Below, one piece after another: positions 1,404 through 43,739 of a DNA stretch of 64,000 bases. Location of the stretch: contig OX442318.1 in NCBI GenBank assembly GCA_949358305.1, positions 13,312,517 to 13,376,516 on the forward strand, in the 5' to 3' direction. Made by a program: the position numbers and the translations under genes. Positions within the stretch are counted from its first letter, which is position 1, and each line of letters opens with the position of its first letter. The stretch is from Strigamia acuminata. Taxonomy: Eukaryota; Arthropoda; Chilopoda; Geophilomorpha; Linotaeniidae. The notes beneath the pieces were generated by a model. It was not told the origin of the DNA. It was given only the letters and a program-made list of their open reading frames with translations, and ran no database searches.

Positions 1404-1421
1404 TGGTGCCGAAACCCGGGA
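1404..1421 (+). other. Primer-binding site, tRNA-Phe type
   Basis: TGGTGCCGAAACCCGGGA begins one base after the 5' LTR. It is complementary to the 3' end of animal tRNA-Phe (acceptor stem GCCGAAA plus CCA, as recalled for Drosophila). This is where minus-strand DNA synthesis would be primed. Confidence 0.8.
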
Positions 1422-1456
1422 GTATTTAATTTCCCATTTAATCCAATTTAAACAAA

Positions 1457-6745: not shown

Positions 6746-7224
6746 TTTGACATGTCATGTAAACCATTATTCAAATTGTTGTTTGTATTCCGAGATTGCT
6801 ACATTGATTTGCTGATTTCATTGTTTCTCATTTTTAAGACTCACTATTATGTTTTGATGATGTAAACACTTTATTATTAATTACCATTTATCATTTCAAG
6901 TGTATTGACCTGTTCTAGTTTTGTATAAGGTTTTTACCCCCACGTTAATCTTTTAATTGGTGGGGTTTTCCCAATCTTGTGAGCACCGTTTCCATTGGTG
7001 CACTGAACGTGTCATCCACATTCTTTGCCTTTTCTTTTTATGTAAATAATAGAATAAAATCCAGTGTACTTTTTACCTCTAAAACGTGTGGTCGTGTCTC
7101 TTCTTCACTCCGACGCCATTTGCAATTTTCATCAAAACCCTCAAGTAACTACATCCATTTGTATCCAGGACTTTGGAAATTTATTGCTAAGTTTGTACTA
7201 CATTTATCTTGTGCAAATTTAACA
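6730..7224 (+). repeat. BEL/Pao 3' LTR
   Basis: 495 bp, the same length as the 5' LTR. Bases 6730-7092 are near identical to 908-1270; bases from about 7093 to 7212 match poorly while the final GCAAATTTAACA agrees again. No strong polypurine tract sits directly before it; a purine-rich run lies at about 6653-6665. Confidence 0.92.
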
Positions 7225-7905
7225 TGGCCAAAAGTATTAGACCACACCAGCAAATCAACACAAAATTTTATTCTTCACCCAATAACTTTGGAGTGGTAAA
7301 TGATAGATACAAAAATAAAAATGCACTGGAAAGACCTGTTTTCCCTCTACAAAACAAACTAAATAAACTTATAAAAATAGCAAATAAAACCCCAAAAAAG
7401 TTGATTTGAAAAAATCTCACTCTGGTCAAAATTATTAGACCACCTTGTTCGCTAGACAAAAATATTAGACCAGACCACTTTTGTCACAGAATGAGACGTA
7501 ACAATGCAATTTTTATACAAATTTCATTGTTTATCTGAATGATGTCAACAATATTCATAACTGACCATCATTTGATGACTTCATTTCGCTGCCATCATGG
7601 CCAAAACCAAGGAACTCTCAGATGACCTGAAATACCGAATTATCTTGCTGCACAAGAACAAATTATCCCAGAAAACCGTTTCAAAGCAACTTAGAATAAG
7701 TAAAACACCCATTCAATACGTAATAAAGAAATTTGGATGCACAGGAACAGTTAAAAATGTGAATCAGTCTGGTCGCCCAAAATCTAATTGACGACGTCAA
7801 GATGGTTACCTTAGAAAAATCTGTAAATATATGAGATTTGCCTTGCCAAATGAAATGGAAAGAAAGTTAAAGAAGGCTAGAATTAATATTGGTACTCATA
7901 GTGTA
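7225..7905 (+). pseudogene. Tc1-like transposon 5' half with transposase fragment
   Basis: The open frame 7597-7791 starts MAKTKELSDDLKYRIILLHK and continues as a helix-turn-helix DNA-binding head of the Tc1 family (QLRISKTPIQYVIKKF). A stop after about 64 residues and a frame change follow; decayed transposase-like sequence runs on to about 7905 and the catalytic DDE part is absent. Upstream, ATTAGACCA recurs at 7234, 7430 and 7467, as expected for subterminal binding repeats. This is a truncated, inactive relic interrupted on its left side by the BEL insertion. Confidence 0.75.
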
Positions 7906-8696: not shown

Positions 8697-8852
8697 TTAA
8701 TAGTTTTTGGTATTTTTAAATTTTTTTGTTACTAGCAAAAGTGCAGAGTGGAAAAAGAAATGTGTTGCACATAAGACAGAAAGGCCAATGGTCAGAATAC
8801 AAATATTACCCACATTGGAAACTAATGCAACAAATGGATATTTCATTTCCAT
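8697..8852 (-). pseudogene. Orphan DEG/ENaC TM2 exon (unit A)
   Basis: A 51-codon open stretch, MEMKYPFVALVSNVGN..., is clearly homologous to the last exon of the nearby channel gene (EFKYSFVALVSDVGN...). It keeps the second membrane segment with the G-x-S filter motif (TIGLS) and the ending KFKNTKN. No upstream exons belong to it; the part corresponding to the extracellular portion of the last exon is missing or unrecognisable. It could be a relic of an older tandem copy or an alternative last exon. Confidence 0.6.
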
Positions 8853-9216
8853 ACTTAAAATGTGTACACTATTTGTGTACAGTAAAACACAGCATTTTCT
8901 GTTTTATAAGAAGTTACAATATACTTGAGTGTATCATTGTAATCACCACTTTGTGATTAAAGACATTTTATGGACCTTCATTTCTACTCCAATTCATGTC
9001 ACTGGGTTGAGGACTGTTAAAATCCTGACTTTTTCAAGTGTTTCCAAAGACCCAACATAATTAATTAAGTGTGCTTATCAATTTACGCTTTACATATCAG
9101 TAGACATAAAATACATTTTTCATTTGTTAAACCTTTTCATTGTTACTATAAAATAAGCAGGATTTGAGAAGAATATATTTATCAAATTTAAAATCTTAAT
9201 GAATCCAATACAAGTA

Positions 9217-12200
9217 CTAGTTTTTTGTATTGTTTAATCTTCTTACTAGCAACATTGCGGGATGGAATAAAAAATTTATTGCAGCTAACACAGAAAGGCC
9301 AAGGGTCAGACTAAAAATATTGCCCACATCTGAAACTAATGCAACAAAAGAATATTTAAATTCTTCAGTGATTGTTTCTACTTTATTGGTATTTAAAGCA
9401 ATTGTTATGACTGTTGTGCCAGCTATAAAAGAAGCATAATTAAAGTCGTTTATTTTGTAGAATGGTTGTTTACAAGGTGGTGAGCACAAGCATTGCCTTT
9501 CAACATCAATTTTTGAGTGTGTTTCATAGTACAATGCTCGCACTGCTTTGGATGATGCTGAAGAGTTGCAGAAGGCAACGTCTTTTTTAATAGCAAACGG
9601 CATACTACAAGTAGAAAATAAATAGAAAAAATAAGGTTTCACCATCCTCAACATCTTTTAGTATTACCTGCACAATTGTTTGCTTTTTATCTCATTGTCG
9701 ATGCACTGATGTCTGCAGGTGTAATATTGAGTTAAATTTGCATTGCATGGATTACGTTTAGTGTTTAGACGATGGTTCTGAAATGGTTTTCAGCGTAATG
9801 AATTCCAAACAAAAGCTTTGCACTAACTATGAAGGAAATGTGATACATACATTTAGTCTTCGAATTGCAATAGTTGTAGTCAATGATGATAAACAAGCAA
9901 CATTGAAATCAAATGAAAAATTGGGATCTTCAATTGGAGTGATGTAAATCTGAAATTAATGTGATTAGATTTATACTTTGTACACTTACCAATATTTACG
10001 TTAGTGTAATCCGGTTTGCACATACGATTGACTTCTACAATACAGTCAGTAAACAGGGTGTATAGTTGATATCTTATTGAACCTAATTTAAATTCTATCT
10101 GTTTTATTCTGGCTCGAAAAAGGAATTAATTACCAAAGGAATGTTTAACGCAAGTTCCAAGTGGGCTTGGGAATTCAGAAATTGTTTGAAAATCCAAAAG
10201 TTGATTGTCAAATGGATTCTAAAAAAATAAACATTTAGTTTTAACTATTACAAATGCCTAGCTGTTTCTATTAATAAAAATAAAAACACGCTAATATCGT
10301 ATGACTTTATAGGCCACTGTTCCGTACTGATTCAGCCCCCAGATAAGGTTGCTGTAAAATTGGCCACCTCACTTCCAAAATGATAATTAAAGATATGCAC
10401 CAATTAATTCAGTGACCTTTATTAGCATTGAGGTAACGATTTTCTTTGGCATGCCGTTTAATAATTATAATATGAGGCAACACAGGGCTCTGTAACTTTT
10501 GAGAGATCCCAAAAGTTCTGTGGATACTTTAGTGAGTATTTGACAGTTATTTTGAAATTAAATTCTTCCTTAATGATTGAGATTGATGACATGATCAATT
10601 TACATGTAAACTTGAGCTTGTGGTATGCCCAACCAATGAGAGTTTGCCATGTTTTTTGAAACAGTTTAATCGTGGAAGCTGTAACTGATGTACTTAGTAC
10701 AAGGGGAAAGCACTAATAAGCTATTTTAAAATTTTAAAATTAATTATGTGAGATAACAATTACAAGTAGTTCTATAACCATTTCAAAGCATTTTGCTCCA
10801 TAAGCTAGAGTTAAGTAACAATGACAATGTCAATGTAGAACTTTGTTGGCTGAGGGAGTTCATTTTTCATGCAAATAGGCTGAATAAAAAGGTCAAGTGT
10901 AGCACTACACTTGGTGATTAGCCTATACAAACCTTACTCTGGAACCCAAGTAATTTGATGTCACATGACATATGACATCACAACTTTGTTCACCAAAATG
11001 ACTGCCTGCATAAAGGCAACAATAGTGTGTTGTGGTGGCCCAGTGGTTAAAGCAATGAACCAGGAATCTTTCCACACAGGTTCAAATCATGTTGTCCGTG
11101 AAAATTTTTACTTTTATTTTTTATTTATTTTTAGCAGTAAAGTTAATAGAAAGTTTGCAGGAGGCATTTTTCCCTTATTTTGTGCCACGTTACACTATTT
11201 TAGTGCCATATCGTAAAAGAAAAATCTTTAGTGTATCGTTTTCAATGCTAAATTAAAATATAGCGCAGCCAATCACAATTGAGAACACTATATTGTTAGC
11301 TCCGCCCATTGCAAATGGCGATTATTTTGTTGTCCTGATCAAAAAATTACCGATAGTGGAAAAACCAGTCAGTGTAAGATTTAGTTTTTTTTAGTGGAAA
11401 TCCAAGCCACTTTAGTAGGATTTTAATTTATACCCATTTACTTACGATGTTTTGACAGTTATTTTAAAATTGAATTCTTCATTAATGATTGAGATGGATA
11501 ACATAATCCATTTACATGTAAACTTGAGCTTGTGATATGCCCAACCAATGGGAGTTTGCACCAAAAAGCCTCTGGCCCTTTAATACCTCTTGTAGGATGA
11601 ACCTCGGAATCTGAATTCTGCCTAAAATTCATCTGCTGTGTGACCTCAGTCAAGATTTACTTACAATCAATCGCACAAAATCCGGTTTGCATGGTTGCGT
11701 GTAAGCCAGCTTCCACAGTTTGTCAGCTGAAAACTGATTGTAATCAAAGTCGATTAGATCCAATAAATCTACATTGCATTTTGAGTTGTTCAGTTTGTTT
11801 TGTTTTAAATATTTTTCTTTAGTATTTATTATTTTTCCCATATGTTCTCCTGCACAAATAATAATATTTGGATATGTCACATTAGCTGGATCTTCTACGG
11901 CCACTGTTCTTTGAATTGGTTTACTCAAATACAATTGAATTCTTTGTTGAACTATAAATCCACTGAATCCAAACAAGCAAAGATAAATAACACAAAAAAG
12001 CATTTTCGGTTTTTGAGGGTTCGGAGTTGGTTGGTTGGCTCTAACGTAAGCTTCAATCTGTCTTGTTGCTCGACCTTTGTGATAAATAAGCTTTGTAACA
12101 CAACGTTTTCCAACAACCAAAGTCAAGTTGAGTAAGGAGAGCGATGAGAGTCCTAACCAAAGACCGAGATTTCCACCAAAATCACAGACGAGATCGTCTA

Positions 12201-14928
12201 ATTTATAAATCAAACGCTCTTTCATTACAACCACATGATCGTCGAGTAAATGCCAGGAACCCAAAGACGTGCCATCGCTGTTATGTTCTAATCGAAATAA
12301 AACATCAACTTCTTTGGTCTCACAATTCTTAGGACAGCCACAGTCAACTCGAGGATTTGGTGCGATCATATCGTTTTTATTTTTCTTGTACATTTCCAAT
12401 GTCAGTATAGAGTTATTGCAAAGTGGCAGCAGATGTCCTTTGGAATATCTTGGTCTATAAGGTAACCTGTTTATTCAAAATAAAAGAATATTGAATGTGT
12501 GAGTATTGCAATTAAGCATTGATTCCAACTAACCAGCAGTGGTTTTCGTCTAAAATTGTTTCCACACACTTTTTTCCACATTCCACGTACTCCTTATATT
12601 GTACACAAAGGTCATTTTTTGTGTTAATGAATTGATGCTAAAAAAATTATTTTAATTAATGTGAATTTACTTTAATACTTTACTAGTAATTCTACTAAAG
12701 CAAAGTTTATTCAGATGCCTTCCACAGTATCTACTGATGGCATTGATAAGGCAAGCCCAACCATTCAAATGGTTTTAAAATGTACATTATTACATTATTG
12801 CAGTAGATATTGTACATTATCTTTTATGATAATTGTGACTCGGCATGGTCTTACCCACGGCAGTCTGGGAGGGACGCATACTCACAAAAATGATTGAGAC
12901 AGGTATTCCAAATTGTTGGATTTTGGCCTTTAATCGTTGTCTAGGGGTCAGACACTCCCATCTACCAATGTGGGGCAGTACTGTTAGGCACTTTACACCG
13001 GCAACTCACCCGTCACACACAGGGGCTGAACTCCATGGGTGACGTGGCCGATCACTATTGGACATTCTGTCGTACCTACCCCGTACGACCCATGTAGCGG
13101 CTAATGGAAGCTGCAACAGGCACATCGCCATGTTACTGAGCGTCACAGTGGTGAATGGTGAAAGGAGCAGAGTCCGCACCTTCGCAAAACCTCTCTCTCG
13201 GGTCTCTCAACTCGACTCTACGTCTGTCCTCTCCGCTCCCTCGGCTTCGTCAATGTCTCACCACATCACTCGGCTCCCGCCTTCCCTTGCTGGATCAGTC
13301 CATCCTGCAAAGGGGGTTAACCTTAGGAGCACTGGGCGGTGTGTGCAGTGATGCAGATCACTGTGGGTGGCCAAGCGGTCACATTATGTAGACATGAATG
13401 GTTGATTTGATTTGAGAACAGTGGTACATGGTGCTTGAGGGGTATGGGTACTGTCAGATGCAGATTTACCAGTCTAAAACGTAATCCCAGTTTGGCATAA
13501 GTGGCTGCAGTTTGCACGAAACCCATTTGAAAATCTAGTGGTAGGGACATTGATATCTGAAATATACCTCTGTGTTAATATTTGTTCACACCTGGTAAGA
13601 CATTTATTTACTAGGGTAAATGATGTTCCTGGTTTCAATTCATTGGCCGTTATGTCGTATCCTATTCTTGTGAAAATTTTAGAACCCTTCACAGTTCCAT
13701 TTACTGCAATTGAAATACTTTTAACTTTCTCAAGGAATTAATTTTCTTTAAACTCACCTTTAAACTTAGTACAAGTACCCCATGGCTGTAGTTCTTCAGT
13801 CATGGTAATATTTAGTGGAACTTGCACCTATACTCACAATGAAATGCAATGAATATTCAATTTTCAGAAAAATTAATTTTAGTTTTGCTAACATGAGGCA
13901 AAATGTTGAATATACTAAGTCAATAAATGTTGTTAATTTAAAGCTAAATCTAGTTTATCCTTTACCTTGGTCTGGTCTGGATCCAAGGTATTACTTTGAT
14001 CTCTCTGGACCAGTCCAAGGTGGATGATATTCCGTTTCCACCCCCTGTCCTTCTGATATTTGCTTTACCTATGCTTTGTGAGTCATCTGCTTAATATTCA
14101 CAGTGTTTCCCATTGAATGCCTGGTTTGGATGTGCCAAATTATGATTGGTCCTTTCTGTTCAGGCCAGTCCAAGTTACTGGAACTCGCTTAAGGGCTTGG
14201 GAGCTGTTTTAGTTAACAAGCATGGAATCTGTATTTTATGCAATATCTCTACTTTCCGTCATGTTTTACGGCTCTAGGAGACCAGTCGGCCATGTTATTT
14301 CGTGTAAGTGCTCGACTAACTAGGGATTGTCTGCCACCAAAACCAGGCAGATTTTCCGCCCTTCCCGGCGTCTTTCGATCGCATTTCAACATCACCGAAA
14401 ACTGGTTCCTGTCACTGTGTACTTTGATTTGTTTAAAATATTTAAACGTACTTTGTTTTGGCGACGTTCATCAATCACGAATAAATTATGAATGGCTTCG
14501 TAACTGTAGTTCAAATTCCATAATTTAGTAAGATCAACACCATCAAGGGGTATAAGTTTGTCGATTGGGCTTAGAGAATCTTTTTCCGTCCGATCTAAGC
14601 CGGATGAGTCATAGTAAGCTGCTATGTACTTATTTATTGGTACACACACGTGCGAATCAGGGAACTGAAATTCTTCCATCTTTTCTTCGTAGACATCAAC
14701 TGCTTTTGGGCTTTGCATATAATAAGAAATGCGGTCAAAAATTTGAAAACAATAGATGAGAATACAGACTACAACAAGAAAAGACCAAAAAATACGAAAC
14801 GTGAGACTATGTGGTCTATCATTAATTAGTTGAAACAACTGCAGGAGATCTCTCTCTTCTTTCAGTGAATTCAGTACGTCTTTGACTTTTAGTTTAAGTC
14901 TTTTGATGATTCGTCGTCGTAACTTCAT
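9217..14928 (-). CDS. Tandem two-domain DEG/ENaC channel (copy A, intact)
   Basis: Eleven exons with GT-AG borders: 14928-14452, 13827-13758, 13703-13612, 13556-13470, 12637-12534, 12466-11665, 10218-10134, 10094-10000, 9949-9851, 9777-9668, 9604-9217. Joined they give 2,409 nt and 802 residues without a stop. Domain 1: TM1 at residues 44-66, extracellular cysteine-rich part, TM2 at about 374-396 with G-x-S (WLGLS). A cytosolic linker of about 35 residues follows. Domain 2: TM1 at about 430-452, a YPNIIIC version of the family's FPxxxxC signature, cysteine-rich thumb (CLCSPPC), TM2 near 767-790 with TLGLS. DEG/ENaC proteins are trimeric, amiloride-type sodium channels of the plasma membrane and normally carry one domain of this kind. 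The N-terminal HG gating motif is degenerate in domain 1 (PHS) and not seen in domain 2. Exon borders were set by phase and by comparison with copy B; the weakest is the 39-nt intron 10095-10133. Confidence 0.88.
10219..11664 (-). other. Intron 6 of DEG/ENaC copy A
   Basis: A 1.45-kb phase-0 intron between the fused exon and the first extracellular exon of domain 2. It occupies the same position as intron 1 of domain 1. It contains a tRNA-like stretch at 11030-11106 and a short internal repeat (10540-10650 resembles 11450-11550). Part of it is shared with unit B (37160-37850). Confidence 0.7.
11030..11106 (+). repeat. tRNA-derived SINE head or tRNA relic
   Basis: TGGCCCAGTGG (11036-11046) fits a pol III A box and GGTTCAAATC (11079-11088) fits a B box with one change, about 33 bases apart, followed by a T-rich stretch. 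No proper tRNA cloverleaf was worked out. It looks like the head of a tRNA-derived SINE inserted in the intron. Confidence 0.45.
12843..13392 (+). repeat. Dispersed repeat, family R1 (copy in intron 4)
   Basis: About 550 bp running from GGCATGGTCTTACCC to GTGGCCAAGCGGTCA. It shares order and wording with 39640-41345: GACGCATACTCAC, GGCCTTTAAT-GTTGTCTAGGGG, CACCGGCAAC-CACCCGTCACACACAGGG, CATGGGTGACGTGG, ACTGAGCGTCAC-GTGGTGAATGG. Since the other copy sits in a different intron of gene B, the two are independent insertions. Class unknown; no open frame of significance. Confidence 0.65.
13828..14451 (-). other. Intron 1 of DEG/ENaC copy A
   Basis: A 624-bp phase-0 intron (donor GTACGT, acceptor ...GTATAG). 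Blocks of it recur in unit B at about 42350-42600 and 42960-43200. No coding sequence seen. Confidence 0.7.
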
Positions 14929-18647: not shown

Positions 18648-18800
18648 CTATTTTTTGGTATTTTTAAATTTTTTTGTTATTAGCAAAAGTGCAGAGTGGA
18701 AAAAGAAATGTATTGTACATAAGACAGAAAGGCCAATGGTCAAAATACAAATATTATCCACATTGAAAACTAATGCAACAAATGGATATTTCATTTCCAT
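18648..18800 (-). pseudogene. Orphan DEG/ENaC TM2 exon (unit B)
   Basis: Fifty codons plus stop, near identical to 8697-8852, again keeping TIGLS and the KFKNTK tail. Originally about 2 kb closer to its gene; now cut off by the 11.8-kb Ty3/gypsy insertion immediately to the right. Both copies stay open, which argues mildly against pure decay. Confidence 0.6.
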
Positions 18801-18879
18801 ACTTAAAATGTGTACACTATTTGTGTACAGTAAAACACAGCATTTTCTGTTTTATAAGAAGTTACAATATACTTGAGTG

Positions 18880-19510
18880 TGTCGTGATTCGACTTTGTGG
18901 TTAAAGATAATAAATAATACACTCGGGAATACAATATATTTCAAATACTGCTTTATTAAAACACGCTTACTAATACAAATATAAGTCAAGATGTTTCCTG
19001 TGTTGGTCCTCGGATTCGGCTGCGAATACGAGTTGCCGCTAAACAATGGCGGATCCAATTGTTTAGTCCTACGCGTGGTCTATGTTTGTTGTCTAGGGTA
19101 TTTCCACGTGTTATTATGAACACGCGAGAATTCGCTTTCTCGTGCGAATTAAACGAATATCGTTCGAATATTTATTCTAGCGTAGATTGGCTACGCTAAA
19201 TAAATGTGGCTGTTGTACAGTTGAAATGGTCAGCGGGCACCGGTCCTCGATCAATCCGTGAAACGGCCTGAAAGGTGAGGTAAATGGTGCTCTTGCTGAA
19301 ATGTGGTAACTGTAGTGTCGTTTCCGGTCAAGCATTGGCTATATATATTAACCGGAAATGACGTCATATGCAAATCCTTCTGATTATGCAGGTTCGCAGA
19401 AACACGAGACTAGTCAGTCTAGTCGGTATTTCTAGCGCGCTCTAGTGGCGAGTATTAGTAACACAATAATCACCGCTAATTACTTCTTCAGGTGATGCTG
19501 AATCACCACA
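18880..19510 (-). repeat. Ty3/gypsy 3' LTR
   Basis: 631 bp. On the plus strand it starts TGTCGTGATTCGAC and ends GCTGAATCACCACA. It is the downstream (3') LTR for the minus-strand element. Confidence 0.95.
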
Positions 19511-19521
19511 CGTCCCTCCCC
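19511..19521 (-). other. Polypurine tract
   Basis: On the minus strand GGGGAGGGACG lies directly before the 3' LTR, the expected place for plus-strand priming. Confidence 0.65.
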
Positions 19522-19704
19522 GAGAATAAATCATCGGGGCCCCCCCTTTAAATAAAGGTGGAGCAGTATCTTTAATCATAAATAATATTTTTATTAAATA
19601 ATGATGAATGATGAACAAAATATTTTACATTCTTGAAATTGATACATAAATAATTTCAGGGTTTTTTAGAGAAGACAGTCTTCTCGTTATGAATATGTAA
19701 TTAA

Positions 19705-22700: not shown

Positions 22701-22814
22701 ATTTCCCTCTTCGTTGTTTACAATGATTTGTAACAAATCCACTTGATCTTCATCGTCATCCTCGGAAGCGTTGTTTACGGCCCGTTCAATTTCTTTCTTC
22801 CAATCATTTCTCAT
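19705..22814 (-). CDS. Third ORF of the Ty3/gypsy element, spliced, function unknown
   Basis: Two exons: 22814-22665 (50 codons, starting MRNDWKKEIERAV) and 22395-19705, separated by a 269-nt GT-AG intron (donor GACGTAAGT, acceptor TTTAG) with phase 0. The exon-2 frame is open from the splice site, adding 47 residues before the first internal ATG at 22254; the total is 946 residues. The protein has an acidic N-terminus, a long arginine/glutamate/aspartate-rich middle (many RR, RE and RD pairs), proline-rich linkers including PPPPPPP, and a moderately hydrophobic block (LMSILLAAATF...). There is no signal peptide, furin-like site or C-terminal membrane anchor, so it does not look like an envelope although it occupies the env position. 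I do not recognise the family. Confidence 0.75.
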
Positions 22815-30641: not shown

Positions 30642-31243
30642 AGTGTATCATTGTAATCACCAATTTGTGTTGAAAGACATTTTATGGACCTTGATTTCTA
30701 CACCAATTCATGGAACTGGGTTGAGGACTGTTAAAATCCTGACTTTTTCAAGTGTTTCCAAAGACCCAACACAAATAATTAAGTGTGCTTATCAATTTAT
30801 GCTTTACATATCAGTAGACATAAAATACCGGTACATTTTTCATTTGTTAAACCTTTTCATTGTTACTATAAAATAAGCAGGATTTGAGAAGAATATATTT
30901 ATCAAATTTAAAATCTTAATGAATCCAATACAAGTACTAGTTTTTTGTATTGTTTAATCTTCTTACTAGCAACATTGCGGGATGGAATAAAAAATTTATT
31001 GCAGCTAACACAGAAAGGCCAAGGGTTAGACTAAAAATATTACCCACATCTGAAACTAATGCAACAAATGAATATTTAAATTCTTCAGTGATTGTTTCTA
31101 CTTTATTGGTATTTAAAGTAACTATTATTCCTGTTGTGCCAGCTATAAAAGAAGCATAATTAAAGTCGTTTATTTTGTAGAATGGTTGTTTGCAAGGTGG
31201 TGAGCAGAAGCATTGTTTTTCAACATCAATTATATTACAGCTT

Positions 31244-31377
31244 AGGCAATAAATGTTGTTTAACTATAGGCTTGTCCAATTAATTTAATATTTACTAGTA
31301 CTTAAAAGAAAAACCAGGTGGAGGGCTTGACCTCTACTTATGGTCTAGCCCGAGACCTGACCCCCAGTCCAATTTTA
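31244..31377 (+). repeat. DIRS left inverted terminal repeat
   Basis: 134 bp from AGGCAATAAATG to CCAATTTTA, identical by eye to the reverse complement of 36254-36387. The outermost 13 bases (31231-31243) are unique to this end. Confidence 0.93.
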
Positions 31378-31474
31378 CTAGCCAAGTTCTCCACACGTGA
31401 TTTTTCGCGTTCAAGAAAATTTTGGCTATTTTTTAGTTTTATATCGCTTTTTTGCACTTTGACTACCTTTTACG

Positions 31475-33062
31475 ATGAGCCCTACTAAAGTTAGAGGTAA
31501 GAAGACAGCAGATGACTCTTTAAGCTCCAAAAAAGCACGACCACCGCGTGGTCGCACCAACACCACTAAGCCTATCACCACCACCACGCGTGTTGAAACT
31601 CACCACGAGCCCATCGCGCCGCCTTCCTCGTCCCAATCGAGGATCCTATTAGATGGTTCCATCGTTCCCACACCATCAGATGAAACGATAGAACGCCTTG
31701 ACGAATCTTTTGGAAACGATGATGTACGGGATCCGAGAGGGCCCGACTTTACCGCCTCGCAAGTCGCGAATAGTCAGGCGCCCGACTTGGGACTTTCTTC
31801 CCAGGCCATCGAGAAGCTCATCTTTATGGCTTTCTCGCAGAATCAGACAGGTGGGGCCCCTCTTCAGCGGGAGGGGTCTACCGAATTGCCAAAAATGTCT
31901 CGATCTCGTAGAGACGAGTGGGGCACATTTCAGTCTGAAAATCAAGTAAGTAATTCTCATGCGGAATTGTAGATAAAATTCTCACTCTTGTTACTGACTG
32001 GTTGTAGTCAGATGTTTCAGAGTATGATTCCGACCGTTCGTCACGCTCTAGCTCGTCAGACGATGAGCGAGAATTTTCCGCAAGACTGTCTCGTAAGGAC
32101 CGTGAAATTATACGTCTCCGACGAGAACTCGAGAAAAGGGACAAACCGCACGCCAAATCGCGAAAATCGCCGTCTCGAAAGGACGAGGAATCCGACCGAT
32201 CGTCGGACGACTCCGATGATCTCGAAGAAGATGCGCCTTTTCTCCACGAATCGTCCGCCAAGGAAATAGTTCGAATTTTGAGCAAACCAGTTTCGACGGC
32301 CAAAAATAACAGTTTTAAGGCCGATTTTCCGTGCCCGACTCGACAGGTTCCCTTTTTGAAAAAGAAGAAAATGGACGAAGATGTGGAGGCCTATGTGGGG
32401 GCACGAAACACGTCCTTTTCCATTCCGCGAGAACGTTTTTTGCGTCGCTTAAACGGCATGATGGCGCGCGTTGGGTCGATTACGGCAAGAATCTACGATC
32501 GTTCGTCAACAAACGACCCCATGAACAAAGACGAATTGCTTTACGCCAACAAAGCCATTTTTCAACAAGTTCGAAATGCTATGAACGCAATTAGCGACGA
32601 ACGACGTTTCAATGTCGTTCAAGGTTTGGGTACGAAGAAGTCCGACATGGTGAAGCATTTTCGAAATTCGGAGGGAGACACTCTTTTTCAAGGGCAATTT
32701 TTTGAGAGATTCAGTAACCCATATTTTCGATACAAAAAATTTAAGAGCCTTACAACTTATTGTTTTTCCTTGCAGAAAAGCAAGCCGACCAATTCGCATC
32801 AGTGGACAGAGCGAGAAGTAAAAATCCCGCGAAGGGTCCTCGTCGCGATAATCGATTCCGCCGTGGTTTTAGTCGCCCCGTCGAGAGTTTTCAGCGCAGA
32901 GATTATTCCCACACACGACCGGACGACAGAGATCAGAGTAGAAGCTTTCGTAACCCGGATTACAACAAAGGGCAGCAACAGCCCTTTCGTAAAAACCCCT
33001 TCCCCAGCAACCGGGGAAGGGGTCGTGGCGGCTTCACTAGAAACGGTAACGGCTTGGTGTAG
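31475..33062 (+). CDS. DIRS Gag, spliced
   Basis: Three exons: 31475-31945, 32008-32713, 32776-33062. The introns (31946-32007 and 32714-32775) are both 62 nt, GT-AG, phases 0 and 1. The joined frame has 487 residues: a basic Ser/Lys-rich start, an acidic Ser/Asp/Arg-rich middle (DSDRSSRSSSSDD), a globular part (YVGARNTSF...), and an Arg/Gly-rich end (NRGRGRGG). Without splicing the first exon stops at 31972. A Gag of this make-up with an RG-rich tail is usual for DIRS elements; the introns are my inference from frame, borders and length. Confidence 0.72.
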
Positions 33063-35170
33063 CCACTTTTCCTTTCCTGACGCCTGTCTTTCATCTGGAC
33101 GTTTACCCCTTTGTCACGACACTTGGTCCTTTATCACCTCAGATTCTTGGGTTCTTGATACGGTCAGAGGGATAAAATTGGAATTTTTAAGTCCACCTAT
33201 TCAATCAGAATTTCGTACACCAGTTTTCGATCAGATTAAACATGAACTAATCAGGGAGGAGGTTAAGGCCATGATCCTTAAAGGGGCCGCTTATTCGGTT
33301 CTTCCTTGCCAAGATCAAATAATTAGTTTTCTTTTTCTAGTTTCTAAAAAAGATGGCGGTTTTCGGCCTATTATTAATCTTAAACCCCTCAATTCCTTTT
33401 TGGTTTTCAACCATTTCAAAATGGAGAATATTCACACCGCCTTGTCTCTGGTGGAGAAAGACGCTTTTATGTTTAAACTGGATCTATCTGATGCCTATTT
33501 TTCGGTGGCCATACACCCAGAATCTCGAAAATTTTTGAGATTTTTCTGGGAAGGTGTTCTGTATGAACTAGGAGTGCTTCCCTTTGGTTTAGGTCCCGCT
33601 CCCTTTTACTTTACAAAATTGTGTAGAGCTGTAGCAACTTTCCTTCGATCTCTTTACGTTCGGTTAGCAGTCTATTTAGACGATTGGTTTTTTATAAATA
33701 AATCTCACGAACTTCTTACACGACAGAGGGATTTTGTTTGCCTTCTTTTTCGCGCTCTGGGTTTTATCATTAATTTGAAAAAATCGATCCTTGAGCCCAC
33801 TACTTCGATTACCTTTTTAGGCTTTCTAATTGATTCAGTTTCTATGAGCGTCTCCTTGCCACCAGACAGAGTTCAGAATATTCTTTCCTCCCTCGAAGAC
33901 TTGCTTCAATCAGAAACCTGTTCTATACGAGAACTGTCTTCTATTATCGGCAAACTTAACGCCACAACAATTGCCATTTCCTCTGCGCCCCTACATTACC
34001 GGGGACTGCAACATTTAAAAGCCCGTAATTTCACCGGAAATTATGAATCCACATGTTTTATAACAGAAGAAGCTAGGTCAGAGCTTTTATGGTGGAAACA
34101 AAATTTGAGATTTTGCAAGGGCAGATCTCTTCTTCCTAAACCTTGTCTCTTATGCTTTGATTCCGATGCCTCCCTAACAGGATGGGGGGCAACTTCTTCA
34201 GGCGTTAGTATAGGAGGCTCCTGGCCCTCTCCCCTTGTTAAGAAACATATCAATGTTCTTGAACTTTTAGCTGCATTTTGGGGTCTCAAGTCTTTTGCTA
34301 AGGATTTATCCGATAGTATAGTTAAGATTAGAATGGACAATACCGCAGCGATTGCCTCCATTAATCATCTGGGCAGCCCCAGATCCCGAGACCTTACTGC
34401 CGTAGCACAAGACCTTTGGTCTTGGGCTATGGAAAGGAATATCTCTGTTCAAGCGGAGCACATCCCGGGTCGCCTCAATATAGAAGCGGACGCGGCCTCT
34501 AGGGGTAAGATCGTAGACTCAGGTGACTGGATGTTGAATCATAAGGTCTTTCACTCCATTGATCAAATTTGGGGTCCCTTTTATTTAGACCTTTTCGCGG
34601 CAATGCATAATGCGCAATTAGAAAACTTCTTTAGCTGGAAGCCCGACCCTGCTGCTCAGGCCTTTGATGCCTTAGTTCAGGACTGGGGATCAGGAATTTC
34701 TTACGCTTTTCCTCCTTTTTGCCTCGTTCCAAAATGCCTTCAAAAAATCCGCAATGCTTCGACACCTACTCGAATAGTTCTGATCACCCCGATTTGGCCT
34801 AGCCAAGCTTGGTTTCCGGTAATTCCACATTCAGGAAATTTGTTCTTTTCTTTCTACTAAATCGAGATTTATTTTTCAGCTTCTCTGGTCCCTATCGACG
34901 GAATCCCCGATACGGTTGCCCCAACTCCCGAATCTTTTGACGAATGCGCTGAAACAACCCCATCCGCTTCTCCTAGCGCGATCCCTGCAGCTGGCCGCAT
35001 GGAAACTGTCATCGGTTCCCTCGGAAACGGAGGTCTTTCAACGAACGCTTCCAAATTGGTGGGGTGTTCCTGGCAGTCCTCATCAAATAAGATCTACGAC
35101 GGACACTGGAAGTCTTGGCTCCACTGGTCTACACGAAACAATGTTGACCCTGTTCGCCCATCTGCCATAA
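32776..35170 (+). CDS. DIRS Pol: RT, RNase H, methylase-like domain
   Basis: The frame is continuous with Gag exon 2 through retained intron 2 (open from 32008 to 34860) and encodes RT with FRPIINLKPLN and YLDDWF (about 33670), RNase H with FDSDAS, IRMDNTAA and HIPGRLNIEADAAS, then a domain LDLFAAMHN...AFPPFCL that I equate with the DIRS Dam-methylase-like module (PPF). A third intron, 34819-34879 (61 nt), removes the stop at 34860 and continues into LLWSLSTESPI...HPLLLARSLQLAAWKLS, which matches the usual C-terminal end of DIRS Pol; stop at 35170. No ATG lies between the RG-tail overlap and RT, so Pol is probably made as a Gag-Pol fusion. Confidence 0.85.
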
Positions 35171-35970
35171 AGTTGGCAAATTACCTTTCTTCTCTTTTTA
35201 CTGATAATTTTGCGCTTAGCACAATAAATGCCCATCGTTCGGCTATTTCTCAGACCATCAGTTTAGTTTCTTCAATTGATCTAGGTTCTCACCCACTTAT
35301 CAGGCGCGTCATGAAAGGCATCGCAAATTCGCGTCCACAAATTCCGAAATATTCCTCCATTTGGCATGTAGGCCCGGTTCTTCTCTTCCTTAAGTCACGG
35401 TTTCTTTTACTTCCTACCTTCTCCAAGTTAGAGATTAATCGTCATATCGCCACACTCTTGGCCCTTTCCTTAGCAGGAAGGGCTTCAGATCTCAAACTCT
35501 TATCATCCAAAGTAGTTTTTTCAGCTAACTCTTGTGTTTTTCCTCTCCTAGGAAAGAGAAAATCCTCCTCTACAGTCCCTTTCGTTCTACCCCGTTTCGA
35601 GGACGAGGAATTATGTCCGGTCGAGGCCATTAAATTTTATTTAAAACACTCAGCCGCTTTTCGCGGATCCTCTCTTCAATTCTTTTTGGCGTCCTCACGT
35701 CCTTTTGGACCGGTCACTTCTTCCACTATTGCCAGGTGGATCAAGGAAACCTTGTCCATGGCAGGAGTAAACACTGCTATTTTTTCGGCCCATTCTACCC
35801 GTGCAGCCGCCACTTCCTTTGCTTGGTCAAAAGGAGTTAATTTATCTCACATCCTTCGAGCGGCAGATTGGTCCTCTGCCTCGATATTTTTCAAATTTTA
35901 TAATCATCCAGTCGAGAGAATTTCGACTGATTTTACTTCTACTGTTTTAGAGGCTACGAAGAGCCTATAG
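34999..35970 (+). CDS. DIRS tyrosine recombinase
   Basis: 323 residues from the ATG at 34999; it overlaps the Pol C-terminus in another frame, as in other DIRS elements. Catalytic residues visible: R in AGRASDL (about 35479), H-x-x-R in AHSTRAAA (about 35791-35802), and the nucleophile Y in FKFYNHP (about 35900). The enzyme would insert the circular DNA intermediate by strand exchange rather than cut-and-join. The stop codon lies inside the internal complementary region. Confidence 0.93.
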   Translation: METVIGSLGNGGLSTNASKLVGCSWQSSSNKIYDGHWKSWLHWSTRNNVDPVRPSAIKLANYLSSLFTDNFALSTINAHRSAISQTISLVSSIDLGSHPLIRRVMKGIANSRPQIPKYSSIWHVGPVLLFLKSRFLLLPTFSKLEINRHIATLLALSLAGRASDLKLLSSKVVFSANSCVFPLLGKRKSSSTVPFVLPRFEDEELCPVEAIKFYLKHSAAFRGSSLQFFLASSRPFGPVTSSTIARWIKETLSMAGVNTAIFSAHSTRAAATSFAWSKGVNLSHILRAADWSSASIFFKFYNHPVERISTDFTSTVLEATKSL

Positions 35971-36066
35971 TTAAACAACATTTATTGCCTAAGCTGTAAT
36001 ATAATTGAATATTTTGCTAAGTTATGACGCAAAATATGAATTATATAAAGAGGCAATAAATGTTGT
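35963..36066 (+). repeat. DIRS internal complementary region
   Basis: The left half is the reverse complement of the element's left tip and the right half that of its right tip; they meet at GTAATATAATTGAATATT (about 35996-36013). In DIRS replication this region templates the joining of the two ends into a circle. Its presence confirms both element borders independently of the flanks. Confidence 0.92.
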
Positions 36067-36253
36067 TATTTCCCACCCTCATTTGGATTTTATGTTTTTG
36101 GTTGATAGATATCTTGACCACCCTAACAACATTTGTTTATGGTTTTTTATTGTATTTTCAGATCACCAATAAAGTCGATCCGTCACCTCTCCTTGATGTT
36201 TTCAGTAAATAAAGTTTTATTTCTGAAACTACTTGTTTTATTCCTCAGTTCCT

Positions 36254-36387
36254 TAAAATTGGACTGGGGGTCAGGTCTCGGGCTAGACCATAAGTAGAGG
36301 TCAAGCCCTCCACCTGGTTTTTCTTTTAAGTACTAGTAAATATTAAATTAATTGGACAAGCCTATAGTTAAACAACATTTATTGCCT
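36254..36387 (-). repeat. DIRS right inverted terminal repeat
   Basis: Reverse complement of 31244-31377. A further 47 unique bases (36388-36434) complete the right tip. Confidence 0.93.
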
Positions 36388-37201
36388 CTTTATATAATTC
36401 ATATTTTGCGTCATAACTTAGCAAAATATTCAATTTTTGAGTGTGTTTCATAGTACAATGCTCGCACTGCTTTGGCTGATGCTGAAGAGTTGCAGAAGGC
36501 AAGGTGTTTTTTAATAGCAAACGGCATGCTAAAATAGAAACAAAAAAATTAATCCTTTTGGCACAGCTGAAACCTTGCACATATTTCTTTTACTCTTACC
36601 TGCACGATTGTTTGTTCTCTATCTCAGTGACTATGCATTGGCGTTTACACATGTAATACTGAGTTAAATTTGCATTGCATGGATTACGTTTAGTGTTTAG
36701 ACGATGGTTCTGAAATGGTTTTCAGTGTAATGAATTCCAAACAAATGCTTTGCACAAACTATGAATGAAAAGTGTTACGTACATTTAGTCTTCTAATCAA
36801 AATACTTGTACTCAATGATGATAAACAAGCGACATTGAAATCAAATGAAAAATTGGGATCTTCAATTGGAGTGAAGTAAATCTGAAATTAATGTGATTAG
36901 ATATTTATACTTTGTACACTTAACAATATTTACTTGTGTGTAGTCCGGTTTGCACATACGATTGACTTCTACGATACAGTCAGTAAACATAGTGTATAGT
37001 TGATATTTTATTGAACCTAATTCAAATTCTATCTGTTTTATTTTGTCTAATGAAAAGCAATTAATTACCAAAGGAATGTTTAATGCAAGTTCCAAGTGGG
37101 TTTGGGAATTTAGAAAATGTTCGAAAATTCAAAAGTTTATCGTCAAACGGATTCTAAAAAATAAAAATTTAGTTTAAACTATTGCGAATGCCTAGCTGTT
37201 T

Positions 37202-37205
<4 letters not shown>

Positions 37206-37238
<33 letters not shown>

Positions 37239-37258
37239 CGGTAATAATAATAAAAATA
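37206..37258. repeat. AAT microsatellite
   Basis: About 16 units of AAT/ATA with one ACCGGT interruption, in intron 6 of copy B. Confidence 0.9.
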
Positions 37259-39837
37259 ATAATAATAGGCCACCGTACCATACTGATCCAGCCGCCAAAT
37301 AAGGTTGTTGTAAAATTGGCCACCTCACTTCCAAAATGATGATTAAAGAAATGCACCAATTAAGTCAGTCACCTTTATTTTGAGGTAAGATTTTCTTTAA
37401 GCATGCCGTTTAATAATTATAATATGAAGCACCCAGAGCTCTGTACCCTTTGAGAGATCCCAAAAGTTTCCAATGTATTATATGGATATTTTAGTGAGTA
37501 TTTGACATTTATTTTGAAATTGAATTCTTCTTTAATGGGTGAGATGGATGACATGATCAATTTACTTGAGGTTGTGATATGCCCATATGCCATATGTTTT
37601 TTTAAACAGTTTAATCATGACGCCCGTAACTGATGTACTTAGTCACTGGACATTGGGAAGGTTATCAGAGGACTAGGGCAGCAAACTATAAAGTAGTTGT
37701 CTTAGTGCAAGTTAAATATCACAGTACCAACTGAATAGTCATCTCCTACACAAAAAGCCTCTGGCCCCTCTAATACCTTCCGCAGAATGAACCTCGGAAT
37801 CTAAATTCTGCCTAAAATACATCTGCTGTGTGAACTTAGTCAAGATTTACTTACGGACAATCGCGCAAAATCTCGTGGGCATGGTTGCGTGTAAGCCAGC
37901 TTCCACAGTTTTTCAGCCGAAAACTGATTGTAATCAAAGTCAATTAGATCCAATAAATCTACATTGCATTTTGAGTTGTTCAGTTTTTGCTGCTTTAAAT
38001 ATTTTTCTTTAGTATTTATTATTTTTCCCTTATGTTCTCCTGCACAAATGATAATATTTGGAAATGTCACATTAGCTGGATCTTCTATAGCCACTGTTCT
38101 TTGAATTGGTTTACTCAAATACAATTGAATTCTTTGTTGAACTATAAATCCACTGAATCCAAACAAGCAAAGATAAATGACAGAAAATAGCTTTTTTGGT
38201 TTTTGGCAGTTCGTAGTTGGTTGGTTGGCTCTAATGTAAGCTTCAATTTGTCTTGTTGCAACATCTTTGTGGTTAATGAGCTTTATAACACAACGTTTTC
38301 CAACAACCAAAATCAAGTTGAGTAAGGAAAGTGAAGATAGTCCTAACCAAAGACCAAGATTTCCACCAAAATCACACACGAGATCGTCTAATTTATAAAT
38401 CAAACGCTCTTTCATTACAACCACATGATCGTCGAGTAAGTGCCAGGAACCCAAAGACGTGCCATCACTGTTATGTTCCAATCGAAATAAAACATCAACT
38501 TCTTTGGTTTCACAATTCTTAGGACAGCCACAGGTAACTCGAGGATTTGGTCCTACCATATCTTTCTTATTTTTCTTGTACATTTCTAACGTCTCTTCAG
38601 AGTTATTGCAAAGCGGAAGGGGATATCCTTTGGAATATCTTGGTCTATAAGGCAACCTATTAATTCAAAATAAAGTTTATTAAATACGTATGTATTTCAG
38701 TTAAACGTTGATTTGCACGAACCAGCAGTGGTTTTCGTCTAAAGTTGTTTCCACACATTTTTTTCCACATTCCATGTACTCCTTATATTGTACACAAAGG
38801 TCATTTTTTGTGCTAATGAATTGATGCTAAAAAATTTATTTTAATTAATGGGAATTTACTTTACTAATATACGTAACCACTAGTAATTCTATTAAAGCAA
38901 AGTTTATTCGGATGCCTTCCACATTTACCGATGGCATTGATACGGCAAGCTCAACCATTCAAATGTACGGTACTGTATACTCCATATTACATTATTACAT
39001 ACATTATCTTTTATGATTATGTAAGCGTGAATGGTTGATTTGATTTGATTTGAGAACAGTGGTACTACATTATGGTGCTTGAGGGGTGTGGGTACTGTCA
39101 GATGCAGATTTACCAGTCTAAAACGTAATCCCAGTTTAGCATAAGTGGCTGCAGTTTGCACGAAACCCAATTGAAAATCTAGTGGTAGGGACATTGATAT
39201 CTAAAAGATACCTCTGTGTTAATATTTGTGCACACCTGGTAAGACATTTATTTACTAGCGTAAATGATGTTCCTGGTTTCAATTCATTGGCTGTTATGTC
39301 GTATCCGATTCTTGTAAAAATTCTAGAACCCCTCACAGTTTCTCTTACTGTAATTGGAATAATTTTTAACTTTCCAAAGCAATTAAAGTTTGGTTTTACA
39401 GTAACTCACCCGTAAATTTGGTACAAGTACCCCATGGCTGTAGTTCTTCAGTCATGGTAATATTTAGTGGAACCTGTACCTATACTCACAATGAAATGAA
39501 ATAAAATGAATATTCAATTTTCAGAAAAATTAATTTTAGTTTTGCTAACACGAGGCTAAGTTTTGATTATACTAAGTCAATAAATGTTGTTAACTTGTGA
39601 CTGATATGGTCTTCGCCAGGTTAACTAGGGGACTAGTAGTCCTGGTGTGAGACGCATACTCACGAATAAATGACAAAACTTCCCTATTATTGGTTGTTGG
39701 CCTTTAATATGTTGTCTAGGGGTATGAGAAATCCCGTCACCCCGTTGCAGGGGTGCCACGAGGGCACACCGCACCGGCAACCGACCCGTCACACACAGGG
39801 CGTGAGCCCCATGGGTGACGTGGTAGGTTCAACATTA

Positions 39838-40592
39838 CATTCGGGGTGCCGTTCCAACGGCAAATTGCCCAACGGCGAATCTGGCCATTTGAACGAATGG
39901 CAAATTTCTACTTTATTCTATCCAAAAGCAGTCCCAACGGCAAATTTCTCGCAATTCGCCATTGGGAACGTATTTGGACCTTTCTAATGGCGAATGGGTA
40001 AACATTAAACCAATTCGCCATTAGGAAGGTCTAATTACACTTCCAATGGCGAAATGGAAAAAATTAGCCACAGGGACGCACATCTAGCGCGACATTATTT
40101 ACCGCGACATGAATCTACCGAGACAAGCCATCCCAAAAAATGGTTTTGCATTAAAAAACCAGTAATAAATAAATAAATAAATAATAAATAAATAATAAAT
40201 AAATAATAAATAAATAATAAATAATAAATAAATAAATAAATAAATAAAAAAGGTTAGGCTCCTGGAGGGTCAAGGGGGTCGCAGCCCCCCTTGTTAGCCA
40301 TTGTTAGGAATTGGAAGAAGAACTACCCAAAATACAAGTTTCAAAGTCGCGGTAGATCCATGTCGTGGTAGATTGAGTCGCGCTAGATGACACGCCCACA
40401 GATTCGCGAATTTCAATGTATCCAGATTCGCCATTGGATACGCAAATAACGTTTCCAATGGCGAATTTCAATATCACGTTTCCAATGGCGAATTTTCCTA
40501 GAGTCGCCATTGGAAACGTCAAAATAGCTTTCCAATGGCGAATTTTGGAAATTCGCCCTTGGACGATTCGCCATTAGAACGGGTACCCTTAC
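39838..40592. mobile_element. Fold-back element with AATGGCGAAT subterminal repeats
   Basis: The ends ACATTCGGGGTGCCGTTC and GAACGGGTACCCTTACATTC are loosely inverted. Inside, TTCGCCATTGGAAACG-like words occur many times in both directions. A second inverted pair lies within it: CATCTAGCGCGAC near 40080 and GTCGCGCTAGATG near 40378, enclosing a (TAAA)n tract (40166-40247). So one small element is nested in another. Confidence 0.65.
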
Positions 40593-40858
40593 ATTCATGT
40601 CGTACTCACCTACGACCCGCAGCAGCCACTCATGAAGGATGCACTATGGAGACCGCCATAGCACTGAGCGTCACTGTAGTGAATGGCGAGGTGTGCAGAA
40701 TCCACTTTAGCCGGGACACGTTCTGTCCCTTTGATGGTAACAGCTCCTCTTGCTCTCACGGTCAGAGAGAGACCTTCGTCTCTCTACGCCCGGTGAAAGG
40801 ACTTTACACACTCTGCAGCTCCTCTCCACACAACTTAGCTCCCTCCTCCCCCAGGCTA

Positions 40859-41251
40859 CCGTCTTAACCCGAATAGTACTGGATCGTGTTGTATTCGAGT
40901 TTCTCAAAAATCGCTGATTTGCAAACATGGTCAAAAAATTCGAATACAACACGATAGTGCTATATTCGAATTGAGATTCGAATCAGATTTTGTCCTAAAT
41001 ACTTAAAAATTAAAGCAACAACAAAATATTAATGGGAGAAAAGTCTTTATTTTTGGTTTGTGTACAAAATCAATGGTTTGAGATACATGTATACAACCAT
41101 AAAACGTTACGTTTCCACAACATTAAATCGAAAAACATTGACACTCCAACGTTTTTCGAAAAAAAATTAAGTTGTTCTTATTGGTTCAAATATAACACCA
41201 TGGTGTTGTATTCGAATACAACACGATCCAGTACTATTCGGGTTAAGACGG
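40859..41251. mobile_element. MITE with TA target site
   Basis: 393 bp. The tips CCGTCTTAACCCGAATAGTA and TACTATTCGGGTTAAGACGG are perfect inverted repeats extending to nearly 40 bp, flanked by TA on both sides. TA duplications suggest the Tc1/mariner group. Confidence 0.85.
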
Positions 41252-41345
41252 TAGGTCACTTCACCCAAAAGGGGGTGGTGACCTTGGGGCCGTAAGGCTG
41301 TGTGTGGCAGTGACATAGGTCACCCTGAGTGGCCAGACGGTCAAA

Positions 41346-43262
41346 AACTTAAAGCTAAATATAGTCTCTGCTAAATAATGGTACTTCGAAAAAAAATCAA
41401 AAATCAAAAGGTCACACACCAGGTGTCACATAATCCTAAGTCAAGCCAATACACAGACCCAATCTTCAGTCTAATAAGTAGCAACAAAAGAAAATTGCTT
41501 TAATTACCAAAAATACAAACGTGGTTCCACGGTGTCAATTTTCTAATAGGGATGGAAAATAAATGATCAATAAAAAAACACAAAAAAGCAGTGGTATTGT
41601 TAGCAACATTTATTGGACTGTAGTACTAGTATAATAAATCTGCAGTATTATGAAAACAGACTAAAATTAAATAATATATTTGAAAATACCGTTAGTGATG
41701 TCGTGACTGCTTAAAGTGAAAGTCTCAGAGCACGTTTTACTCTATGGGTGGCTTTATTAGGACTGGGGGTTAAATCTGTACAATACAATCATTGGTGCCA
41801 CTCGTGTGGCACCACACTACAGATTACCACATTTCCATACTGAAATGTATACACAACATTCCAACAAATACAGTGTGAAATAATTTTATTGCATATCATG
41901 GTTATGTTAGAGAATAATTATACAGTCGAATCTCGTTACAATTAACCGCAAAATAACGAAATTTTTGTTGTAACGAATACTTAAAAATAGCTTGGTTGGT
42001 TCGTTGGTTGGCCATAGAACACCACATTAAAAAAAATTGGTATAACAAAATATAACAAAACGATTTTTTGGGTCCCTTGCGATTCGTTGTAACGAGGCTT
42101 GACTGTACTGATCTTGAATGTTAAAGTTAAAGTGTTGTCACACTGGCATTTGGTATGAGTTTTTATACTGTACCGTTTTGGTAAACCCAATTGAACTTTT
42201 TAGTGATTCTCAGAGATGAATTTGGTGATTCCCTAGCTGTGATTTGATTTACCTTTTGTTCTTTCCTGTTCCTTGATTTCCTAACATCCTAAGCTTAAGT
42301 TCTGAATTCAAAAGTGTTTGAATAAATTAACAACTTTATCCAAATGCCACCTAGTTTATCATTTCCTTTATCTGGTCTGGATCCAAGGTATTACTTTGAT
42401 CTCTCTGGACCAGTCCACCCCCTGGCCTTCTGATATTTGCTTTACCTATGCTTTGTGAGTCATCTGCTTAATATTCACAGCGTTTCCCATTGGATGCCTG
42501 GTTTGGATGTGGCAGCTTGTGATTGGTCCTTTCTGTTCAGACCGGTCCAAGTTACTGGAACTTGCTTAAGGGCTTGGGAGCTTTGAATCTGGGCAGATTG
42601 AGGGTGACACTGAGTGTGTTAAGAGCTCCTTTAGTCTGCGGACACAAGAATTAAGCCAACATTCAAACGATGTCACTCATGAATGTCCCTTGGCCATCAT
42701 CTTAAATATATTCCATAAGGACAAGAGTGGTTGACCATTGTAAATCACATTGCATAGGCCTAAGACAACCTTGGCAGTCATATTAATTCATATATTTTCC
42801 TTTAGCCAAGGATTCTTATTCTGAACGCATAATTAAGTCCCATTTACCTTTTTTATATGCGGGTGGCACGCTTTCTGGAGACATGGAATGACATTACTAG
42901 TATAGCGCTTTTTGACTGTCCGTTTCTTTAACCGCTTCACCATCGGCGGCCCCATTTAGGCAACTGTTTTAATTAACAAGCGTGGAATCTGTATTCTATG
43001 CAATATCTTTACTTACTGTCATGTTTTTACGGCTCTAGGAGACCAGTCGGCCATGTTAATTCGTGTAAATGCTTGACTAACTAAAGATTTTCTGCCTCCT
43101 AAACCAGGCAGACTTTCTATAAACGGGCCAGTAGTCAGGACCACGCCCTTCCAGTGCTCATAACCAGGCGCCTTTCAATCACATTTCAACGAGACCAAAA
43201 ACTGGTTCGTGACACTATGTACTTTGATTGGCTACATACATGTTTAAAATATTTATACGTAC
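41346..43262 (-). other. Remainder of intron 1, DEG/ENaC copy B
   Basis: Apart from the pogo-type MITE, 42350-42600 and 42960-43200 match intron 1 of copy A; 42600-42955 is extra. No coding sequence recognised. Confidence 0.5.
41923..42105. mobile_element. Pogo/Tc1-type MITE
   Basis: 183 bp flanked by TA. Tips CAGTCGAATCTCGTTACAA and TTGTAACGAGGCTTGACTG are inverted with few changes. The wording resembles pogo/Tigger-derived MITEs. Lies in intron 1 of gene B. Confidence 0.8.
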
Positions 43263-43739
43263 TTTGTTTTGGCGACGTTCATCAATCGCGAATAAATTAT
43301 GAATGGCTTCATAACTGTAGTTTAAATTCCATAATTTAGTAAGATCAACATCGTCACGGGGTATAAGTTTGTCGATTGGGCTTAGAGAATCTTTTTCCGT
43401 CCGATCTAAGCCGGATGAGTCATAGTAATCTGTTATGTACTTATTTATTGGTACACACACGTGCGAATCAGGAAACTGAAATTCTTCCATCTTTTCTTCG
43501 TAGACATCAACTGCTTTTGGGCTTTGCATGTAGTAAGAAATGCGGTCAAAAATTTGAAAACAATAGATAAGAATACAGACTACAACAAGAAAAGACCAAA
43601 AAATACGAAACGTGAGACTATGTGGTCTATCATTAATTAGTTGAAACAACTGCAGGAGATCTTTCTCTTCTTTCAGTGAATTCAGTACGTCTTTGACTTT
43701 TAGTTTAAGTCTTTTGATCATTCGTCGTCGAAACTTCAA

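Follow-up and report, generated by a model that had tools for sequence, protein, structure and literature searches.

The window, i.e., the whole 64,000-nucleotide stretch of Strigamia acuminata DNA analysed here, is placed at C6:13312517-13376516 in a genome of 237.5 Mb. Between positions 14928 and 9217 its minus strand carries copy A, a spliced gene model of 11 exons that all have GT-AG boundaries and join without a stop, with a predicted product of 798 residues. The exons are listed below, and the two DEG/ENaC domains of the product are termed D1 and D2.

14452..14928, minus strand: copy A exon 1, N-terminus and TM1 of D1; open frame with donor GTACGT; 45 further such first exons in the clade
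13758..13827, minus strand: copy A exon 2 of the gene model; conserved in copy B
13612..13703, minus strand: copy A exon 3 of the gene model; conserved in copy B
13470..13556, minus strand: copy A exon 4 of the gene model; conserved in copy B and aligns to P0001
12534..12637, minus strand: copy A exon 5 of the gene model
11665..12466, minus strand: copy A exon 6, the fused exon; end of ectodomain 1, TM2 of D1, linker and TM1 of D2 in one open frame
10134..10218, minus strand: copy A exon 7 of the gene model (D2)
10000..10082, minus strand: copy A exon 8 of the gene model (D2); aligns to P0001
9851..9949, minus strand: copy A exon 9 of the gene model (D2)
9668..9777, minus strand: copy A exon 10 of the gene model (D2)
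9217..9604, minus strand: copy A exon 11, end of ectodomain 2, TM2 of D2 and stop; 46 further such last exons in the clade

The coordinates, the strand and the joining of 11 exons without a stop, as given in an earlier note on this DNA, are all found in the sequence, although the 802 residues claimed there are 798 in our model. Exon 12466-11665 lies within a single 274-codon open frame and thus reads by itself from TM2 of D1 through a linker into TM1 of D2, as the note had also stated; the linker is present but has about 38 instead of about 35 residues. Outside the fused exon, the splicing of copy A is a prediction. A previous model with 10 exons and 753 residues, which was without exon 4 and the start of exon 8, was replaced after comparison with P0001, a protein of Strigamia maritima described below.

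A second two-domain gene, copy B, is also found in the window, with the following features in and around it.

30937..43739, minus strand: copy B, second two-domain gene; exon stretches with 88-97% DNA identity to copy A; limit at 30937 approximate
37858..38656, minus strand: fused exon of copy B, open frame 37843-38664
31231..36430 (limits approximate), plus strand: DIRS-like retroelement in exon 11 of copy B, with a reverse transcriptase and Dam methylase ORF and a tyrosine recombinase ORF
8703..8888, minus strand: relic of a duplicated last exon, downstream of copy A
18678..18836, minus strand: similar last-exon relic, beyond the LTR element adjoining copy B

All 11 exons of copy A are recognisable in copy B, and much of the introns also matches. 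The initiator ATG is changed to TTG in copy B, with an alternative ATG six codons further, and exon 11 is interrupted by the DIRS-like element, which has inverted ends of about 155 bp and a Dam match that is to an adenine methylase. Over 786 codons, comparison of the two copies gave a dS of 0.15 and a dN/dS of 0.22 in D1 and 0.38 in D2. An LTR retrotransposon at 18879-30644, with gag, RT, RNase H and integrase matches, separates copy B from the last-exon relic, and it was inserted recently, since its 635-bp ends are 99.8% identical. A BEL/Pao-like element with a single 1767-codon open frame and ends of about 497 bp that are 92.6% identical occupies 908-7225, and a long, imperfect tandem repeat array is found at 57548-58297. 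Rfam and tRNA scans of the window returned no matches, while weak Sol i 2 matches below the cut-off were set aside as chance.

Two DEG/ENaC domains in one predicted chain

Each half of the predicted copy A protein matches the Pfam ASC family (PF00858), with 60.0 bits for D1 and 63.1 bits for D2 compared with a curated cut-off of 23.6. Hydropathy analysis predicts four membrane helices for the window protein and also for P0001, and cysteines are found between both TM1/TM2 pairs, such that the order of TM1, Cys-rich ectodomain and TM2 occurs twice in the window protein. Together with the homologues and the at least 402 fused-exon loci described below, one Pfam match per half and the four predicted helices bear out the claim of the earlier note that one chain holds two complete DEG/ENaC domains, and the G-x-S motif that it had noticed in each TM2 is also seen in the sequence. 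D1 and D2 of the window protein are 18% identical in an alignment (BLASTP E-value of 3e-7 with the previous 10-exon model). Each domain is interrupted by five introns with phases 0, 1, 0, 0 and 2 in identical order, whose paired D1/D2 positions are at alignment columns 195/179, 230/231, 276/273, 307/307 and 348/348. Four of the pairs agree within three columns, and the first pair is 16 columns apart in a gapped stretch. Given the matching phases and order of the introns, the fused exon occupies the place where one gene would end with its last exon and the next would begin with its first.

DEG/ENaC/ASIC channels are trimers of single-domain subunits, and an N-terminal His-Gly motif before TM1 is a feature of the family. 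Instead of one unit per subunit, each chain is predicted here to have two TM1-ectodomain-TM2 units, which leaves the homology unaffected. In the window protein, from which this was read, HG is absent before both TM1s.

When the previous 10-exon model was searched against about 5.8 billion proteins, T1ITL7 of Strigamia maritima (P0001) was the sole match at an E-value below 1e-3. This 805-residue protein matched with an E-value of 4.3e-124 and 33% identity over 97% of the 10-exon model, and is 36-37% identical to the final 798-residue model. With P0001 as the query, the matches up to an E-value of 10 were P0001 itself, T1IS61 (P0002) and T1IPM9 (P0003), the last of which is a 907-residue protein of Strigamia maritima with 22% identity to P0001 and, by its sequence, a second, divergent two-domain protein. 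Two-domain sequences elsewhere, for which the earlier note had suggested a protein search, are represented by P0001 and the divergent P0003. Like the window gene, both have two DEG/ENaC domains per chain and a short linker, and their database names do not mention two domains; these uncharacterised proteins are probably automated models. The window protein and P0001 share 34% identity between their D1 domains and 41% between their D2 domains, compared with 18-19% for the D1-D2 cross pairs, while the domains of P0003 are 17-23% identical to the others. In the genome of the window, the best-scoring match to P0001 is 59% identical, and exons similar to P0003 are present at C1:19.22-19.31 Mb. P0002, a 514-residue protein of Strigamia maritima, has the first part of D1 joined to D2 without the middle and the fused exon, and could reflect a faulty gene model or alternative splicing. 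No sequence was retrieved when the protein database was searched with a profile of both proteins, and because even P0001 was missed this result says little on other species. The AlphaFold model of P0001, built from a 7-row alignment, has a pLDDT of 32.6.

Both domains find their best match among solved structures in BRTNaC1 (E-values of 2e-21 for D1 and 6e-10 for D2), a thermal (heat) receptor of Scolopendra (PMC12714832). Unlike the window protein, BRTNaC1 has one domain per chain of 431 residues, and its chains are arranged in threes (PDB 8ymr, 8ymw and 8ymx). PDPNaC1 (PDB 9jf7), to which D1 matches with an E-value of 1.5e-13, is likewise a DEG/ENaC protein, but it is a 421-residue, single-domain homotrimer that is reported to be a proton-gated channel in sensory neurons of the centipede antenna (PMC12714832). 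With 798 residues and two predicted domains, the window protein lies outside this format of about 420-430 residues and one domain.

The fused-exon family and its origin

The earlier note saw a single gene, whereas its actual context is a very large family within the genome. At least 402 distinct stop-free fused-exon loci are found on 13 contigs of the 237.5-Mb genome, including at least 166 on C1 and at least 124 on C6, where each locus is a six-frame match to one exon and not a full gene model. The loci were compiled by hand from the match tables of six queries, i.e., the fused exon of the window and five others, and places within 1.5 kb were merged. With the fused exon of the window, 129 of the best 144 matches span TM2, linker and TM1 without a stop and were kept, and 15 were dropped (11 with stops and four partial). 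The five further queries contributed new loci in 18 of 55, 31 of 146, 138 of 150, 19 of 150 and 68 of 150 rows; the rows left out were repeats of earlier places, single exons, partial matches or matches with stops. The true number of loci is probably higher, because for five of the six queries the best 144-150 of 956-1590 candidates were scored.

Twenty diverse fused exons could be aligned, and the 19 others are 24-74% identical to that of the window. A Pfam scan of ten fused frames found a match to the C-terminal part of ASC in all ten and two matched stretches in five. Three equal-scoring fused-exon matches about 13.4 kb apart (C4:3023087, 3036452 and 3049801) resemble a recent tandem duplication, and six near copies in and around the window at C6:13226851-13356255, three on each strand, suggest an inverted cluster.

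The clade of the window comprises 46 first, 45 fused and 47 last exons, with a clear drop in score after each set; two fused exons and one first exon contain a stop. The order first-fused-last along the contigs is found for 43 of these 45 fused exons, compared with a mean of 5.3 and a maximum of 14 triplets in 2000 trials with shuffled labels. The genes of this clade have two domains each with no sign of three: a three-domain gene was looked for, and no directly consecutive fused exons were found. A similar alternation of exons is seen by eye in the P0003-like cluster at C1:19.22-19.31 Mb. For the clades beyond that of the window, the exons covered are the fused one and part of the first and last ones.

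The TM2 exon region was used to build a tree from 19 of the 45 distinct fused ORFs, 15 of the 25 last exons, 10 exons with a stop after TM2, D2 of the window, and both domains of P0001 and P0003. In this tree, whose region is short and whose support is modest, all 21 D1 sequences are grouped together (UFBoot 76), as are 17 of the 18 D2 sequences (95). D2 of P0003 is placed among the sequences labelled as single-domain, and the single-domain gene L004 adjoins the D1 group; of the ten sequences so labelled, five have a TM1 frame that is not fused, and for the remaining five the label is based solely on a stop that follows TM2. The separate D1 and D2 groups are consistent with, though short of proof for, one old fusion.

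In the stretches of genome that were fetched, the single-domain genes L003, L004/L051, L008 and two in L055 have separate TM1 and TM2 exons, and no fused exon was found to lie between these. At L055 (C11:5265000-5274900), single-domain DEG/ENaC genes are arranged head-to-tail, such that TM1 exons take turns with TM2 exons and no fused exon was found among them; these genes are possible partners of two-domain chains and a possible picture of the state before fusion. We propose that two neighbouring head-to-tail single-domain paralogues may have been fused once, through loss of the DNA that separated the last exon of the upstream gene from the first exon of the downstream one, and that the fused gene would then have multiplied in clusters.

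Pore motif, linker and selection

The G-x-S motif was found in D1 of all 45 distinct fused exons (from 52 frames, mostly close to that of the window) and in D2 of all 25 last exons, which are mostly from the clade of the window and neighbouring clades. At position 18', numbered after PMC5449180, D1 has Asp in 23, Asn in 18 and Glu in four of the fused exons, while D2 is without an acid in all 25 last exons (20 His, three Arg, one Tyr and one Gln). The D2 motif also reads GN, AN or GS where the D1 sequences shown are mostly GG. In ASIC1a, Na+ selectivity is carried by E18' and D21' (PMC5449180). The difference between D1 and D2 in the pore motif is recurrent in the last exons examined and is not universal: both domains of the window protein (copy A) have Asn at 18', P0001 has Asp in D1 and Leu in D2, and P0003 of Strigamia maritima has Asp in both domains, with GFT at the G-x-S position of its D2. 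The linkers of the 45 fused exons are 31-67 residues long (median 34) and have a net charge of +2 to +12.

Selection was examined with 75 pairs from the 45 fused exons that are 70-97% identical and that share history, so that they are not independent. Omega was below 1 for 66 of 75 pairs in the D1 part (median 0.52), 66 of 72 in the linker (0.45) and all 75 in the D2 part (0.36). These values point to purifying selection in both domain parts for most pairs, and noise or positive selection may account for the nine D1 values that are not below 1.

These observations bear on whether the two-domain form is real and functional. It is very improbable that the array consists mostly of dead copies and that the two-domain form has no function. 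Copy B has lost its ATG and gained a DIRS insertion, last-exon relics lie nearby, and 11 of the 15 rows dropped for the window exon hold stops in the matched stretch, all of which would speak for this reading; yet 129 of the best 144 matches are stop-free through TM2, linker and TM1, most pairs have an omega below 1 in the D1 as well as the D2 part, and a two-domain protein is recorded in another centipede, Strigamia maritima. Even harder to credit is that two genes were wrongly joined, the fused exon being a last and a first exon that share a frame by chance. Copy A has an in-frame ATG ahead of TM1 of D2, and the gene is known from genome sequence alone. However, copy B has a Lys codon in place of this ATG and hence does not keep a separate start of D2 there; such an open frame occurs at at least 402 loci, and two database proteins of Strigamia maritima cover both domains.

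Filling of the pore and possible roles

Because a normal channel has three single-domain subunits and two domains per chain are predicted here, a paired-domain assembly would be needed. We propose that in the 11-exon two-domain gene, one of at least 402 fused-exon loci, as in its relatives, each chain likely fills two neighbouring places of a three-place pore. The linker would be cytoplasmic, such that D1 and D2 share the same orientation; its net positive charge suits the cytoplasmic side and hence the normal DEG/ENaC orientation of both domains. D1 and D2 would be unequal neighbours within the same pore, with Asp, Glu or Asn at 18' of D1 and mostly His in D2, and the third place would go to a single-domain DEG/ENaC subunit or to one domain from a second chain. 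Single-domain DEG/ENaC genes of the same genome could provide partners for the two-domain chains. In engineered ASIC concatemers, as in the window gene, DEG/ENaC subunits are linked C-terminus to N-terminus, but these concatemers are man-made and have three subunits, whereas the window gene is natural and has two domains (PMC10329638). With added linkers of 19 residues, such trimeric concatemers are reported to conduct (PMC10329638), and this, together with the length and charge of the linker here, favours one chain in two neighbouring places with a single-domain subunit in the third.

Two other arrangements can be considered. Three chains could form two linked homotrimeric pores, (D1)3 and (D2)3, in a double-barrelled channel. 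The separate grouping of D1 and D2 and their differing TM2 motifs would be expected if each domain packs only against itself, and a linker of 31-67 residues could reach between the pores, but a D2 trimer would, for most of the last exons examined, place three His and no acid at 18', where the selectivity of ASIC1a needs acids (PMC5449180), and we consider this arrangement unlikely. A shade less plausible still is an assembly without a single-domain partner, in which two chains bring four domains, either to a three-place pore with one domain to spare or to a four-place pore. It would fit the many chains for which no partner is proven, and a homotetramer has been claimed for ASIC1a (PMC4529235); against it, PDPNaC1, a centipede relative with a solved structure, forms a homotrimer (PMC12714832), and single-domain genes are present in the genome.

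Returning to one chain in two neighbouring places, it is conceivable, although we hold it to be rather doubtful, that these genes are a centipede superfamily of sensory receptors from one fusion, in which hundreds of natural dimers would place two non-equivalent domains in each threefold pore and the third would come from a shared single-domain co-receptor or from a spliced form of the same gene. Since the matching introns share phases, exon skips stay in frame and could yield single-domain subunits from a two-domain gene. That the two-domain chains may be sensory receptors is a guess by analogy, made because of their number, clustering and divergence, the roles of BRTNaC1 (heat) and PDPNaC1 (protons), and a remark in the Strigamia genome paper. 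According to that paper, genes duplicated in the Strigamia lineage are enriched for sodium transport and taste, among others, and Strigamia is without the insect olfactory receptors (PMC4244043); the terms "sodium channel," "amiloride," "pickpocket" and "degenerin" are absent from its main text (PMC4244043). A review of the DEG/ENaC family describes subunits with two transmembrane helices that assemble in trimers, and neither "tandem" nor "concatemer" is present in its main text (PMC10148893). Among the matches listed from the open-access literature, there was no paper on a two-domain DEG/ENaC protein.

With a joining exon kept at more than 400 loci, a naturally occurring two-domain chain allows a direct test of the DEG/ENaC rule of three. 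Key questions are which arrangement evolution has chosen and why, in the clade examined, the genes show two domains each and give no hint of a third. The two-domain family may be a large and so far unnoticed receptor repertoire of centipedes. Insect pickpocket (PPK) proteins are single-domain and, like the centipede genes, belong to an arthropod DEG/ENaC radiation with proposed sensory roles. The Drosophila family is given as 31 members (PMC12304301), compared with at least 402 fused-exon loci in the genome of the window.
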